Positions 36,258 to 42,727 of a stretch of DNA of 64,000 nt are shown piece by piece (position 1 is the stretch's first letter; the number at the start of each line of letters is the position of its first letter). The DNA comes from Undibacter mobilis (GTDB lineage: Bacteria; Pseudomonadota; Alphaproteobacteria; Rhizobiales; Xanthobacteraceae). Made by a program: the position numbers and the translations under genes. The DNA lies in contig NZ_QRGO01000001.1 in assembly GCF_003367195.1 (NCBI RefSeq), positions 310,001 to 374,000 on the forward strand, given 5' to 3'. Below the pieces are notes generated by a model. The model did not search any database, was not told the DNA's origin, and saw only the letters and a list, made by a program, of their open reading frames with translations.

Positions 36258-37094
36258 TCAGTTCGTGTTGAAGCGAATCGGGACCGTAATGCTCCGGTTA
36301 ACGCCCGGCGGCGGCGGCGGAACGGGTGAGGCACGCCGCACCATCGCGAGCCCTTCTTGATCGAACCCGCCAACCCCCGATGATCTTGCCACCGCAACGT
36401 TCAGGACATTGCCTGCATTGTCGATGGTGAAGCGCACATACACGATCCCCATTCGTGCCCCAGCATCGCCCGGATAGCGTTTGCGGGTTTCCAGATGCGC
36501 CATCAGCCGTGACTGCCAGGTCGCAGGCGACATCGCCATGCCTTCGGATGTCTGCGCAGCAGCGAAGCGGTCCGATTGCCGCGTCTGCAACTGCGCCTGC
36601 CGTTTTGCGTTCGATGCCCTCGAAGCACGTTGAGAGGTGGACGCCTTTTGCCTCGCAGGCTTCGGCTCCGGTTTCTTCGCCGGTTCGGTGCGCTCCGGCG
36701 GCAATTTGACCTCCGCCTCCTCGATTACCGGCACCTTTTCCTTTGAAACTTCATGCTCGACGGTCTTCTCGTAGCTCGGATCTTTCGCTTCCTCGGCCTG
36801 AGGTTTCTGCGGCTCGTCCTGCCGCTTCCGCTCTTGCGCCGCCGCGTTTTCGTCTGCCGACGTCTTGTCGGACGCAATATCGGTCATCTCAGCCTGCATG
36901 GCCTCCGGCGCGATGGCGAGTTCGAGCATGATCGCCGTAGGCGGCGAGCTGTCTGCGGCGACAACCGGGTCCACATGCAACATCCAAGCGACGACGCCGA
37001 CATGCGCCGTTACCGTCACCAGCGAGGCGCCCGACCAGATCAGCGCTGCGGTCGCCTTGTCACGGCGCGACGTCCCAATGCCGCAACCGATCAT
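36258..37094 (-). CDS. tonB: TonB-family energy transducer
   Basis: 278 residues. One N-terminal membrane anchor (ALIWSGASLVTVTAHVGVVAWML) precedes a long Glu/Lys/Pro-rich periplasmic spacer (about residues 90-165) and a TonB C-terminal domain (RLMAHLETRKRYPGDAGARMGIVYVRF to SITVPIRFN). It transmits proton-motive force to the adjacent TonB-dependent receptor. ExbB and ExbD are not present in the module and must come from elsewhere. Confidence 0.92.
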   Translation of the reverse strand: MIGCGIGTSRRDKATAALIWSGASLVTVTAHVGVVAWMLHVDPVVAADSSPPTAIMLELAIAPEAMQAEMTDIASDKTSADENAAAQERKRQDEPQKPQAEEAKDPSYEKTVEHEVSKEKVPVIEEAEVKLPPERTEPAKKPEPKPARQKASTSQRASRASNAKRQAQLQTRQSDRFAAAQTSEGMAMSPATWQSRLMAHLETRKRYPGDAGARMGIVYVRFTIDNAGNVLNVAVARSSGVGGFDQEGLAMVRRASPVPPPPPGVNRSITVPIRFNTN

Positions 37095-37227: not shown

Positions 37228-40200
37228 TCAGAAGCGATAGTTGACGCCGAGCCGGATCATCGGAATATCGACCTTGCTGAACACGCGGCGGCCGGTAACC
37301 GTATTCGCCGTCACCGGATAGCCATAGTTGTTGGCGTCTACGACACCGGCTTTGGCGTTGGCAAACACCATCGGGCCTTCTTCAGCAAATCGCGCCAGCA
37401 GGTATTCACCCTTCAGCGACCACGACTTATCGAGCGCATATTCAAGACCGCCACCGATGACATAACCGGTACGCGTCCGGGACGCTTCCTCGGTAAAGGT
37501 CGCCGCCGTTGTCGTGAAACTTCGCGAGACTGTCGCATATTGCGTGCGTTCGGCGTCGTGACGCATGAAAGCAAGACCGCCGGTGCCGTAAACCATCAGA
37601 CGGTCATTGACCGCATAACCGAGACGGCCGCGCAAGGTCGACAGCCACTGGACGCTCTCCTTCTGCACCGCTTCATACTGCCGCTGGCGGAACAGATTAC
37701 TGCCGAAGTTCTCGGTTGCACCTTCGGTCGCGTAGGTGATCTGCGAACCGCTCATTTGTGTCTTGGCAATGTCCGCTTCGACACCGACAACCATGCGGTT
37801 GACAAACTGGTGATTAAAGCCGGCGTGGATGCCAAAAGACATGGCGTCCAGATTGAAGTCCGGCGATTCGGATGCGCCATAGCGGCCGCTGGTGCCATCG
37901 AGCTGCGTCGTCCGGCCGGTGATGTCGGCGTAGTTATACGCCCCATTGACGCCGGCGTAGAAGCCGCTCCAGTTGGCTGCGGTCCGGGCCGGTGCAAACA
38001 CGCGCCCCAGCGATGCAGGCGATGCGGGTTCGGCGCCGCCGAACTTCCCGGTCATGCCGAAGCGCAAGGTGCGGCCCGGACTTGGTTGTGCGACGAGGCT
38101 GAGCGGATCGACGTAGTATTGGTCGTTCAGGTTCTCGACCGACGTCCACATGGTGACGTCCCTGGTCAGCTTGTACTCGGCGAAGACATCGAACAGCCAG
38201 TAAGGCTGCCATACGATCGGGGAGATGATCGCGGCCGCACCGTACTGTACAGCGCCGTACTTCACCGAGCGCGGGCCGGTGTGACTGACGCGGGTGCCGA
38301 CCGTAAGGTCGTCGTTGAGCAATTTCTGTGACAGAGTCAGATTGGCCGAATATTGCGGCGGCACCTGATTGGTCGCGTAATCTCCCGACAAGGTCGACGC
38401 CGAGCATGAATTGGGGATGGGGCAGAATTCGACATTGAGGTAGTAATTCGCCGCCAGGTCCGCGCTGAAACCGCCGTTCTCGTAGCGGCCGGAAAATTCC
38501 AGTCCCGAGAATTTCGCGCGATCGATGTTGAGGATCGTCAGAGCCGTATAGGCATAGCCATAGGTCGGATCGACGAACTGCCGGCTCTGGCGCGCGACGT
38601 AGTCCTTCACATTCCAGTTGAAGTAGCCGAACTTCATCATCGCCTTGTCGTTCGACGAGAAGAGACCGGTCTTGTCCAAGTTGACGCCGAATTCCCAGTT
38701 GTTCGAACGCTCCGGACGCAGGTTCGGATTGACGACCAGCGTGTAGGCGGCAACGGTCTCGAATAAGGTCGGCATGCGCAACGCGCTCGAGTAATTGGCA
38801 TATAGCTGCGCGCCCTTGATCGGCTCCACAACCACGCCGCCGGACGGACTATAGCCCTTGTACTCGCGCGACGCGTCCGGATTGACGTAGGCGGCGTTGG
38901 TCTGCGTGCTCAGATCAAGCGACGTACTGCGCGAATAACGCAGGCCGCCATTGAGCGTGAGCCAGTCCACCGGTTTGTAGGCGACCTTGCCGAAGAAGCC
39001 GGATTCACTGCGGGTGCCGTCGCGGGTCGGAATACCCAATGTGAGCTGGCTCGAGTAAGGCGTCGGCTGCGTTGACTCGTGGATATAGGAGAAGCCGTAG
39101 GTCAGGTCGAACGACCCGAAGCGATTGAGCGACAGGTGACTCTTGTTGCTGACGTCGCCGCCCCACATCCGGGCGTCGTTGCCGGTCTTGTAGTCACGCG
39201 GCAGGCCGAAATCTTCCGGCTTGGCTGCGGCCGAACTGACGCGCAACGGTGTGCGCAGCCTGAGTGTCGTCAGCCACAGATTGGCCTTCAGATCGACAAA
39301 ACCGTTTTCATTGGGTTGAAAGCGATAGCGCAGTGTGCCGGTGTCGAGCTTGGTGTCGTCGGACTGCGTCTGTTCGACCGCCTGCGATCGCGTACTCCCG
39401 AATAGCGACGCCAGCAGATCACCCGCCTGCGCACGATAACCATTATAGCCGAGTTGCAAGCTCTGACCGTTGTTATCACGCAACGTGCCCTTGGCGATCC
39501 ACGATTCGGTGTTCAGCCAGGTGTTGAGAACCTGCTCGCCGGCGCGATAGCTCGACAACCCGCCGTTCTGATAAACGTGAGCGTAGGAAATCGGGTGCGG
39601 TGGATAGTAGCATGTACCGCTTGGATAGCAGAGCGGCTGTGGGCCGGTATCGATCACCTGCGCACCGGGACCATTCTTACCGGCGAAATAATTGCCCTGC
39701 TGCCGCTTGGCGTAGCCCCACAGCAGATCGTAATTCTTTTCCTTGATCGCCGCGATGGTGCTGAAAGAACCACTGGTCGGCGTCAGTGCATTCGGCCGGT
39801 CGAGTCCCGAGGCCTGCGCCGTTGGGACCGGATAAGGCTGCGGATCGCTGACATAAGGCATGGGCCAGGTGTAACCGCCAAGAGAGCCCGGCTTTGGCGC
39901 CGTCGTATTGGTGCCGAAACCGCCCTTAACCCAGACGCCCCACTTTTCGCCCGGTTTCACGACATCGTTCGCGCCCAATGTGCGCATCGACACGGTGCCG
40001 GCAATCCCGCGCGAACTGGCGTCCGAACCTTTCAGAATATCGGCGCCCGCCAGAAGATCGGGGTCGATATAAGTGCGGTTAGAGATGCCCTGATAGCCCT
40101 GATAGACGGAGAGGCCGTTTTCTGCGCCATCGACATTGACCGCGACGCGCCCCATGCCCTGCATGCCGCGCACGTTAACGTCGATGCTGCCGCCACCGTT

Positions 40201-40815
40201 ACGCGCTTCACCGGACAGCACGCCGGGCGTGCCGCGGAAGATGTCGGCCGGCGACGAGCCGCGGAAACGCTCGATGGTCTCGCCCGAGATATGGCTCACG
40301 GGCGCCGGTGTCTGATAAGGCGCTTCGACCGCGGTGCGGCCGGTGCCGTAGACGTCGATCGTATCGAGCATCAGCGTTCCGTCCGACGCCACCGCGCTGT
40401 TGGCATTGAACGCAGCGGAATCAATCAGAGCAGCCGAGCCCGCAGCGCCGATGCGCACATCGATGCCGGTGCCGGCAACAAGCCGTTTCAGTGCCTGCGC
40501 CGGCGGCATGTCGCCGACGATCGCCGCCGATGTCTTGCCCTGCACCAATGCCGTCGAATAGCTGATCTGCCAGCCCGTCGCGCGAATAAAAGCCGTGACG
40601 GCCGACGACAAAGGCTGTGCGGAAATCGAAAAGCGAACAGTTTGACCGGCAGCCGCCGTGCGGGCGCCTTGCGCATGGGCCGGTGTTGTCTTTGTCGCCG
40701 CGGTCCCGAAGCCAAGCACGGTCGTCGACAGCAGCAGAATGCCGAAACGCCGCAAACCACCGATCGTGCTGGCGGCTCCATTCACGCGCGACGAAGCCGG
40801 AACCACACCGTCCAT
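37228..40815 (-). CDS. FecA-type TonB-dependent receptor fused to a C-terminal Omp25/31-like porin barrel
   Basis: 1195 residues, far longer than a usual receptor. Order: signal peptide (ends near AHA-QG, residue 49), STN signalling domain about 61-130 (RFSISAQPLSSAVTAFIRAT), plug about 165-285 (DIFRGTPGVLSGEARNGGGS, VNVRGMQGM), TonB-dependent barrel to about residue 926 with a typical last strand RTLRFGMTGKFGG, Ala/Pro linker, then from residue 948 NWSGFYAGVNGAYNY, a small Omp25/Omp31-type barrel ending GVNYRF with C-terminal Phe. The plug and barrel resemble haem/haemoglobin-type receptors. The STN domain and adjacent fecR and fecI indicate surface signalling. The frame is uninterrupted, so the fusion is not a frameshift artefact within this sequence. 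Confidence 0.9.
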   Translation of the reverse strand: MDGVVPASSRVNGAASTIGGLRRFGILLLSTTVLGFGTAATKTTPAHAQGARTAAAGQTVRFSISAQPLSSAVTAFIRATGWQISYSTALVQGKTSAAIVGDMPPAQALKRLVAGTGIDVRIGAAGSAALIDSAAFNANSAVASDGTLMLDTIDVYGTGRTAVEAPYQTPAPVSHISGETIERFRGSSPADIFRGTPGVLSGEARNGGGSIDVNVRGMQGMGRVAVNVDGAENGLSVYQGYQGISNRTYIDPDLLAGADILKGSDASSRGIAGTVSMRTLGANDVVKPGEKWGVWVKGGFGTNTTAPKPGSLGGYTWPMPYVSDPQPYPVPTAQASGLDRPNALTPTSGSFSTIAAIKEKNYDLLWGYAKRQQGNYFAGKNGPGAQVIDTGPQPLCYPSGTCYYPPHPISYAHVYQNGGLSSYRAGEQVLNTWLNTESWIAKGTLRDNNGQSLQLGYNGYRAQAGDLLASLFGSTRSQAVEQTQSDDTKLDTGTLRYRFQPNENGFVDLKANLWLTTLRLRTPLRVSSAAAKPEDFGLPRDYKTGNDARMWGGDVSNKSHLSLNRFGSFDLTYGFSYIHESTQPTPYSSQLTLGIPTRDGTRSESGFFGKVAYKPVDWLTLNGGLRYSRSTSLDLSTQTNAAYVNPDASREYKGYSPSGGVVVEPIKGAQLYANYSSALRMPTLFETVAAYTLVVNPNLRPERSNNWEFGVNLDKTGLFSSNDKAMMKFGYFNWNVKDYVARQSRQFVDPTYGYAYTALTILNIDRAKFSGLEFSGRYENGGFSADLAANYYLNVEFCPIPNSCSASTLSGDYATNQVPPQYSANLTLSQKLLNDDLTVGTRVSHTGPRSVKYGAVQYGAAAIISPIVWQPYWLFDVFAEYKLTRDVTMWTSVENLNDQYYVDPLSLVAQPSPGRTLRFGMTGKFGGAEPASPASLGRVFAPARTAANWSGFYAGVNGAYNYADITGRTTQLDGTSGRYGASESPDFNLDAMSFGIHAGFNHQFVNRMVVGVEADIAKTQMSGSQITYATEGATENFGSNLFRQRQYEAVQKESVQWLSTLRGRLGYAVNDRLMVYGTGGLAFMRHDAERTQYATVSRSFTTTAATFTEEASRTRTGYVIGGGLEYALDKSWSLKGEYLLARFAEEGPMVFANAKAGVVDANNYGYPVTANTVTGRRVFSKVDIPMIRLGVNYRF

Positions 40816-40910: not shown

Positions 40911-41918
40911 CTATCTCAGAATGACGACACTGCCCGGCAAACGAAGCATCGTGATGCCGGCCGCATCGGCCAATGTGCGCATCGCGCCTTCGATGTCGTC
41001 GATGCGATAATTCCCTGACACCGCAAGATTCTTCACGCTGTCGCCGATGACAATCAGAGAACCGGGATAGTAACGACGCAATTCGTCGACGACATTCGCG
41101 AACGGTTCGTTATCGAACACGATGCGTCCGTCGCGCCACGCCAGGGCATGGGCGAGATCGACCGGCGACACCATGATCGACGCAGCGGTCGCAGTCGCCA
41201 TTTGCCTCGGTGCAAGTGTCGACTTGTCGTGGGCACTTGCCGAACGCCGCACATCGACCACGCCGCGCTCGAGAACGACCTGATCCAGTTTATCCAGCGT
41301 CTTGACGGCAAAGGCCGTGCCCTTGACTTCAACATCGCCGAAATGCGCGGCAACGCGGAAAGGGTGTTGCGGATCGTGGCGCACGTCAAAGAAGGCTTCG
41401 CCCTTCAGCAAATGAACATTGCGTCGGCCCGCGGCGAAATCGATCGCGACGGCGGAGCCACTGTTCAGCATCATCGTCGAACCATCCGGCAACGTGACCG
41501 TCGATTGCACACCGGCCGCCGTCACGTAATCCGCGTTCAACCACAACTGCAGACGGGGAAATTGCCAGACACCGATAGCCAGAATAGCAATCGACGCGGC
41601 CAGCGCCATTTGCCTCGATACGCCGCGCGAGCGGCGCACGGCAACAGGCGGCGTTGCCACAGACTGTCCCGGCGACAGGCTTCGGGCCGATTTTTCGAAA
41701 GACGGGGAAGCCCACATCGCCTCGATATTGCGAAATTCGGCCCCATGACTCGGGCTGCGCGCGAGCCAGGCCTCGAAGGCCACCCGCGTCGCGCCGTCGG
41801 CATCGGGCTGGCGCAACCGGATGACCCAGTCCAGCGCCTCGTCGGCGACCGCGTCGCCATGCGCGAGCCCCCGCCCCCCGTTCTTGTCGTTGACATCGTC
41901 GCGCTTCAAGCGAGCCAT
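40911..41918 (-). CDS. fecR: FecR-family anti-sigma/signal transducer
   Basis: 335 residues. The N-terminal DUF4880 domain (ADEALDWVIRLRQPDADG...EAWLARSPSH) binds the sigma factor. A membrane helix (MALAASIAILAIGVWQF) follows, then the periplasmic FecR domain (VTLPDGSTMMLNSGSAV, LLKGEAFFDVRHDPQHPF) and a C-terminal STN-like domain (VDELRRYYPGSLIVIGD). It relays ligand occupancy from the receptor STN domain to FecI. Confidence 0.92.
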   Translation of the reverse strand: MARLKRDDVNDKNGGRGLAHGDAVADEALDWVIRLRQPDADGATRVAFEAWLARSPSHGAEFRNIEAMWASPSFEKSARSLSPGQSVATPPVAVRRSRGVSRQMALAASIAILAIGVWQFPRLQLWLNADYVTAAGVQSTVTLPDGSTMMLNSGSAVAIDFAAGRRNVHLLKGEAFFDVRHDPQHPFRVAAHFGDVEVKGTAFAVKTLDKLDQVVLERGVVDVRRSASAHDKSTLAPRQMATATAASIMVSPVDLAHALAWRDGRIVFDNEPFANVVDELRRYYPGSLIVIGDSVKNLAVSGNYRIDDIEGAMRTLADAAGITMLRLPGSVVILR

Positions 41919-41996: not shown

Positions 41997-42512
41997 CTAT
42001 CGGGATTCGAGCCGGGCAAGCGAATCGCGGCAATGGGCCAGCGCCAGCTTGAGGTCGTTGAACACTGTGCGCTCGGAGACACCGAGGTGCTCGGCAATCT
42101 GCGCGTTAGACCAGCCTTCGATACGGCTGAACCGCAGCACGGTCTGAACCCGATCCGGAAGTTGCGTCATCGCATTCTGAAACGTGCGCAGCCGCTCTCG
42201 CTCGATCAGCTCCGTTTCCAGCGACGGAATGTCGGCGGGAATGTTGCTCAACTCCGTCTCGGTCGGGCGGGCCGCGCCGAGCTCGCCCCGCGTCTTGCGC
42301 CGGCGCAAATAGTCGATCGCCAGATTGCGCGCGGTCTGGTGAAGGAAGGCTTCGATGTGCTCGATGCGGCCGGCTTCGAACGCTTTGCGGGCCCGCAGAT
42401 AGGCATCCTGCGCCAGATCCTCGGCGGTCTGCCGGTCGCGTACGATACGAAACACCGCCCCCATCAGGGCGTTCCGTTGCACCAGAAACACCTCATTCAA
42501 CAAAGCAGACAT
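41997..42512 (-). CDS. fecI: FecI-like ECF sigma factor
   Basis: 171 residues from ATG 42512, the start that removes an unlikely Cys/Trp-rich extension. Sigma region 2 is seen as AEDLAQDAYLRARKA and AFLHQTARNLAIDYLRRRK; region 4 as QLPDRVQTVLRFSRIEGWSNAQIAEHLGVSERTVFNDL. It directs RNA polymerase to the receptor promoter when FecR is activated. It is the first gene of fecI-fecR-receptor-tonB, all on the minus strand. The 215 bp to its right shows no clear Fur or RirA box. Confidence 0.92.
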   Translation of the reverse strand: MSALLNEVFLVQRNALMGAVFRIVRDRQTAEDLAQDAYLRARKAFEAGRIEHIEAFLHQTARNLAIDYLRRRKTRGELGAARPTETELSNIPADIPSLETELIERERLRTFQNAMTQLPDRVQTVLRFSRIEGWSNAQIAEHLGVSERTVFNDLKLALAHCRDSLARLESR

Positions 42513-42727
42513 CGCACAACACAACCAACGCCCGGCGCCAAAACAGCGCCACCGCGTCAATGGTGTTAAGGCATCACTAAAATCTACGCAACATCAATGA
42601 TTTAGAGAGAGTCAAAACAATGCTACGCGCACGGCGCACTCTGGGAATGGCTGCACTCCAACTGACCGCGCCCTGAACTTTCATCCAGGAGCGATTAGAG
42701 TCTCGGCGGATGTACGCCGTTCCGGCG

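Follow-up and report, generated by a model that had tools for sequence, protein, structure and literature searches.

A HasR-like signalling receptor joined to an Omp25/31-like barrel in one predicted outer-membrane protein of Undibacter mobilis

Outer-membrane proteins with more than one barrel in a single chain, GfcD and YjbH among them, form a class in which Solan et al. in 2021 reportedly distinguished more than thirty architectures. The class is described (Solan et al., 2021, as cited in excerpts of PMC8592465 and PMC11494523), and for GfcD the excerpts describe a 12-strand barrel, a second barrel with 12 or 13 strands, and a middle domain. The protein considered here, which likewise has more than one predicted barrel, is encoded on the minus strand (40815..37228) of a 64,000-nucleotide stretch of the Undibacter mobilis genome (contig NZ_QRGO01000001.1, positions 310,001 to 374,000; this whole stretch is referred to as the window). 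By description it differs from GfcD in that one of its two barrels is a signalling TonB-dependent receptor. A preliminary description of this DNA had implied that the chain was unique, which it is to a lesser degree than suggested because multi-barrel proteins are already a described class. Among the titles and abstract openings listed in literature searches, none deals with a TonB-dependent receptor fused to a second barrel, a weak negative in that most subscription papers lay outside these searches.

The receptor half is comparable to HasR of Serratia marcescens (PDB 3csl), which has the same STN domain, plug and 22-strand barrel but lacks a second barrel. According to excerpts of PMC9249621, a secreted haemophore feeds HasR in the Has system and takes part in signalling. 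Transducing receptors of the FecA and FpvA type also combine an STN domain with adjoining FecI/FecR-type regulators, as in the window, although the receptor body here is closer to haem receptors. The second half resembles the Omp25/Omp31/Hbp family (Bartonella Hbp, Brucella Omp31), whose members are PF13505 8-strand barrels with a WSGFYAG-like start and a YRF-like end. The module of the window differs from them in being attached behind a receptor and in carrying outer-face residues that are rare in 35 stand-alone or tandem modules. The Bartonella Hbp are porin-like proteins of 30-40 kDa that bind haem in vitro and, expressed together with a haem transporter, increased the uptake of haem; four of them showed no transport of their own, and reports on HbpA conflict (PMC3799009, in excerpt). 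Hemin is also bound by Omp31, whose sequence shares about 32% identity with HbpA (PMC9728373, in excerpt).

Computation supports the predicted two-barrel architecture and its conservation, a shared ancestry of the modules, selection acting on both halves in relatives, and a gene order resembling that of has. The preferred reading, to which slightly less than an even chance is given, is that the gene encodes one outer-membrane protein in which a HasR-like signalling receptor carries a tethered accessory barrel at the cell surface that probably collects haem.

Predicted fold, relatives and descent

The open reading frame starts at an ATG, encodes 1195 residues and has no internal stop. Its parts are the following:

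40666..40815, minus strand: signal peptide region, residues 1-50, with a hydrophobic stretch followed by AHA-QG as putative cleavage site
40441..40572, minus strand: STN signalling domain, residues 82-125 (Pfam PF07660, 35.4 bits)
40006..40317, minus strand: TonB-dependent receptor plug, residues 167-270 (Pfam PF07715)
38041..39942, minus strand: HasR-like 22-strand receptor barrel, residues ~292-925, ending PGRTLRFGMTGKF (PF00593 and AlphaFold2)
37972..38040, minus strand: flexible Ala/Pro-rich linker of 23 residues, residues 926-948 (from AlphaFold2 confidence, pLDDT)
37231..37971, minus strand: second module, a predicted 8-strand OMP_b-brl or Omp25/31-like barrel, residues 949-1195

STN, Plug, TonB_dep_Rec (PF00593, matched at residues 445-896) and OMP_b-brl (PF13505, matched at residues 935-1158 with 52.3 bits over a cut-off of 28.7) all exceed their Pfam cut-offs, and the first three give the receptor half the composition of a TonB-dependent transducer. 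PF13505 was matched at E 0.001 in 44 of 44 modules. The last receptor strand ends at F925; the module starts at W949, ends in GVNYRF and, being attached behind the receptor, has no signal peptide of its own. AlphaFold2, run on residues 51-1195 with a 66-row alignment, returned a mean predicted local distance difference test score (pLDDT) of 85.2 and a predicted template modelling score (pTM) of 0.71. In the model the receptor has 22 long strands, pLDDT falls below 50 within the linker at residues 930-944, and the module part has eight long strands plus one three-residue strand in the last loop; these counts were read by hand off the strand list. Predicted alone, the module reached a pLDDT of 93.4 and a pTM of 0.86, again with eight long strands and one short piece. 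The chain is thus predicted to hold two complete barrels, of 22 and 8 strands, and since these were predicted separately, residues 948-1195 should form a barrel of their own; their use as a completion of the receptor barrel is rejected on the same grounds.

Of the 95 distinct receptors compared, counting that of the window, 59 show the order of receptor then module; these fused receptors span twelve named families. The other 36 receptors are unfused and end at position 925 or at most eight residues past it, many with a GRTFYASLTA-F ending; the fused proteins continue for 223 to 316 further residues, which form the module. Because the same order is found in so many relatives, the fusion is not an assembly error, and a sequencing or assembly artefact is ruled out. 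A missed stop, an assembly join or a receptor barrel completed by residues 948-1195 is therefore given practically no credence, as the strands were predicted as separate sets and the unfused relatives stop where the receptor barrel of the window does. In these respects the preliminary description was borne out: it had proposed two barrels in one chain, read the frame as open through the junction, which it is in the available sequence, taken residues 948-1195 as a separate barrel, and named TonB_dep_Rec plus OMP_b-brl matches and the same order in homologues as the checks to make.

The relatives were drawn from a contig scan of the best 79-80 of 354, ranked by likeness to a fused query, with six plasmid regions added; because they were picked in this way, 59:36 is not a population ratio. 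Three plasmid relatives are annotated simply as 'TonB-dependent receptor'. Excluded before the count of 95 were twelve loci that duplicate one kept under another id (among them L037, another strain with equal scores whose letters were not compared, and L031, a piece of a kept locus), seven fragments or broken copies (L018, L019, L025, L026, L028, L030, L097) and frames that do not span the receptor (the second copy at L083; L106 at its end); L107 had no frame at the threshold. L056, with a frame shifted near its end, is counted in the receptor tree and in the gene-neighbour, residue and haem oxygenase counts, and omitted from the module tree, the identity correlation, the dN/dS pairs and the module-position comparison. 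Copies with a split or shifted frame were thus seen at L028, at L083 (second copy) and at L056.

Matches at 1e-40 were found in 12 of 198 genomes of the window's family and in 5 of 385 in a survey of its class, and matches at 1e-120 in 6 of 398 genomes across the phylum, the window's genome being included each time; ten other listed genomes of the genus gave no match at 1e-40. Fusion outside Alphaproteobacteria was set aside: the module profile matched none of the eight other loci taken from the phylum survey, which covers 1e-120 matches only. When the profile was run on 149 genomes of the family, 13 matches above 200 bits were among the matches listed: eleven in frames of 1158 to 1235 residues, one in a frame truncated where its contig stops and one in a 450-residue frame near a contig end. 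The next among the matches listed was a 370-residue frame with 165 bits. A separate module gene beside an unfused receptor was detected with the fused-module profile only at L082 and L099 in the scanned stretches. A general split form, with unfused receptor and separate module gene, was set aside on these two loci, a search that a more distant barrel could escape.

Unfused and fused receptors adjoin at L033:7236-15507 and also at L058 and L060, each with its own sigma/anti-sigma pair upstream; Pseudochrobactrum is an example of a genome with the two kinds side by side. L099, whose record is titled Bacillus subtilis SK6B4, has an unfused receptor that groups with Brucellaceae and probably reflects assembly contamination. 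L090 (Klebsiella sp. BIGb0407), the only row of the 95 with a gammaproteobacterial label, groups with two Mesorhizobium rows, a placement that suggests horizontal transfer.

At the junction, all 95 receptors carry PGR at 913-915. Every one of the 59 fused receptors has a hydrophobic residue at position 925 (42 F, 11 L, 6 I); of the 36 unfused ones, 34 have F there, one has L and one W. Ala occupies position 923 in 33 of the 36 unfused receptors, and the residue there is mixed in the fused. The fused chains themselves end in F in 58 of 59 cases, the exception being L056. As position 925 is always hydrophobic in fused receptors but F in only 42 of 59, the internal last strand keeps its pattern with the strict terminal signal relaxed, a strict signal standing at the module end. 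How the barrel assembly machinery (BAM) handles such an internal beta-signal, raised in the preliminary description, is a real question.

Trees were built by a quick method. On the receptor tree the fused and unfused states need at least six changes, or four when starred branches only are counted. The module tree places 54 of 58 fused modules on one side of a branch (SH-aLRT 97) and, on the other, 39 rows made up of four short fused modules and a limited sample of 35 non-fused ones, for the most part the top scorers from a single family. A tree uniting all 58 fused modules is not rejected (p-AU 0.784). As far as the quick tree goes, the module would be of one origin, and one fusion followed by several losses is the simplest reading; exchange of modules by recombination is a possible alternative history. 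Identity of module and receptor is correlated over the 58 fused proteins (r 0.64), a value reached in none of 2000 permutations. In 15 close pairs of relatives, dN/dS ranged from 0.017 to 0.184 in the receptor and from 0.054 to 0.257 in the module, which indicates purifying selection on both parts in every pair; the window's protein is in none of them because its nearest relatives are too distant. A fusion signature on the receptor side was hardly found, with fused and unfused receptors differing at no more than seven positions, of which two belong to the junction.

Receptor kinship and gene neighbourhood

HasR is the nearest characterised receptor by sequence (180.7 bits with phmmer; 373-375 bits by profile). 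It also holds ranks 1-3 in Foldseek. ChuA and ShuA come next, and PhuR appears at rank 11, after FrpB and TdfH. FecA was rejected as nearest kin, since HasR is closest in sequence and fold and the FecA equivalog scored 38 bits, over residues 52-220 only. The earlier label 'FecA-type' therefore stands for the STN domain and the FecI/FecR pair and fails for the receptor body, which is HasR-like. As the NCBIfam model TIGR01785 (TonB-hemin) gave 310.2 bits, under its cut-off of 316.85, the receptor is called HasR-like here and is not filed as a member of the HasR type.

The neighbouring genes are:

41997..42560, minus strand: FecI/HasI-like extracytoplasmic function (ECF) sigma factor (PF04542/PF08281)
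40911..41918, minus strand: FecR/HasS-like anti-sigma factor, upstream of the receptor (PF04773)
36258..37094, minus strand: TonB-like protein directly downstream, in the place of HasB (PF03544/TIGR01352)

The receptor of the window thus has an adjacent ECF sigma factor and FecR-type anti-sigma factor, and FecI-like, FecR-like, receptor and TonB genes follow in a row. Their counterparts in the has operon succeed one another likewise, as hasI-hasS-hasR-..-hasB, with hasA, hasD and hasE between receptor and hasB (PMC9249621, in excerpt). A FecR-like frame lies upstream in 58/59 fused and 29/36 unfused receptors and a FecI-like sigma factor in 52/59 and 31/36, respectively; a TonB-like frame within 4 kb downstream was found in 20/59 and 12/36, some loci ending sooner.

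Ten frames downstream of relatives were searched against Pfam: two are heme oxygenases (L096, L105), three had no match, and the remaining ones matched ExbB, ExbD, TonB, DUF454 and Rrf2. A haem oxygenase profile was built from a cluster of 24 frames, of which only those of L096 and L105 were checked with Pfam. Among loci with at least 5 kb of sequence, 15 of 46 fused ones have a haem oxygenase-like frame on the same strand no more than 6 kb downstream (13 of these within about 200 bases), as do 5 of 31 unfused ones; at L055 the fused and unfused cases are one gene. Loci with less than 5 kb gave 0/13 and 1/5. By place, 21 such frames are downstream on the same strand, one is downstream on the other strand and none is upstream. 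In the genome of the window the TonB-dependent barrel family is matched five times, and one DUF2470 (HugZ-type) protein is encoded far from the receptor. HasA gave no match in it, and the control genomes were likewise silent.

The outer face of the small barrel and its proposed function

The module was compared between 54 long fused proteins and 35 stand-alone or tandem modules, the short fused modules L100, L103, L105 and L116 being omitted, and a position was taken as fused-specific if its residue occurs in at least 80% of the former and at most 20% of the latter. Fifteen positions qualify, all in loops 1, 2 and 4 or at upper strand ends: G967, G974, E983, E1031, R1090, Q1092, Y1093, T1103, E1109, F1151, A1154, K1155 (R in most), G1157, G1175 and R1176. 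R1090, G1157 and R1176 are the same in all 54. Positions conserved in both sets (at least 80% of fused, at least 70% of comparators) lie at the start or very end or in lower or middle strand parts, with none in a loop or upper end. Mean conservation is 0.72 for the lower two-fifths of the strands and 0.48 for the upper two-fifths, upper and lower having been assigned from the predicted strands and because the linker is periplasmic. The placing of the fifteen positions would be expected from an outer-face function held in common, though the mixed comparators exaggerate it. Together with the haem-uptake neighbourhood, the outer-face conservation favours ligand capture among the functions proposed in the preliminary description.

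In the proposed mechanism, the receptor would be driven by TonB, and its STN domain would signal to the neighbouring anti-sigma and sigma factors. The small barrel, permanently attached by its flexible periplasmic linker, would catch or concentrate a ligand at the cell surface, most likely haem, and pass it to the adjoining receptor. It would do in cis what the HasA haemophore or separate Hbp/Omp31 proteins do in trans. The identity of the ligand, its binding and the hand-over are what we infer.

Several results weigh against this proposal. The comparator set mixes paralogues, chiefly from a single family, with loops that differ in any case, and a gap is its commonest state at 974, 1103, 1157, 1175 and 1176, five of the fifteen positions. 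The module has a higher dN/dS than the receptor in all 15 pairs, 36 unfused relatives manage without it, and the receptor core is nearly alike in the two kinds. For haem in particular, 31 of the 46 fused loci have no haem oxygenase within 6 kb, and the genome of the window matched neither the PF01126 haem oxygenase nor HemS, searches for which the controls among 14 genomes gave matches in three and one, respectively. Haem binding by HasR uses two histidines, His189 and His603, in the plug and in loop 7. These have no conserved counterpart here: no alignment column holds His in more than 80% of the 95 receptors, and the corresponding regions present Y241 and mostly F691. The region of Y241 aligns with the haem-binding loop of HasR, and this plug residue, Tyr in 95/95 receptors, is a candidate ligand residue; with no conserved His, Tyr (Y241, Y238) would therefore have to serve.

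The better conservation of the barrel scaffold and the existence of relatives without the module would suit a purely structural part, in which the small barrel stabilises, clusters or anchors the receptor and binds no ligand. This is unlikely, if well short of negligible, because all fifteen fused-specific positions fall on the predicted outer face and none on the periplasmic side. The same accessory role could also be played for a different ligand than haem, such as a xenosiderophore or some other metal complex, and here the lack of a conserved His, of PF01126 or HemS matches in the genome and of a TonB-hemin score above the cut-off would all fit. That the nearest solved structures are haem receptors and that haem oxygenase-like genes follow fused receptors in 15/46 loci (5/31 for unfused) speaks against it, and such a ligand is considered quite unlikely. 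Very improbable, finally, is a shield that keeps phages or bacteriocins from the receptor loops they use: the specific residues lie on the outer face, and presence and absence of the module switch several times on the receptor tree, but loops under such pressure would be expected to diversify, yet R1090, G1157 and R1176 are invariant in 54/54.

As for the origin of the proposed haem-collecting receptor, a HasR-like alphaproteobacterial transducer may have captured an Omp25/31-type barrel once, the barrel then gaining an extracellular binding face and replacing the diffusible haemophore, with BAM folding both barrels through an internal relaxed and a terminal signal; this scenario is possible, with doubt outweighing confidence. 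Fused and unfused receptors of one family provide a natural pair for measuring the effect of a second barrel. With them one can test how BAM deals with an internal beta-signal when a second barrel comes after it, and whether haem-binding porin-like proteins of the Hbp/Omp31 kind work by standing beside a TonB-dependent receptor.

A second multi-barrel-like protein is encoded in the same genome outside the window (L146:497-3793, minus strand; contig 1, 296996-300292), with a 1098-residue frame and three PF13505 stretches, the last two of which are separated by about 300 further residues. In the same family, L130, L133, L142, L143 and L144 are single frames of 515-725 residues with two Omp25/31-like modules each, so that tandem small barrels recur in genomes of the window's family.

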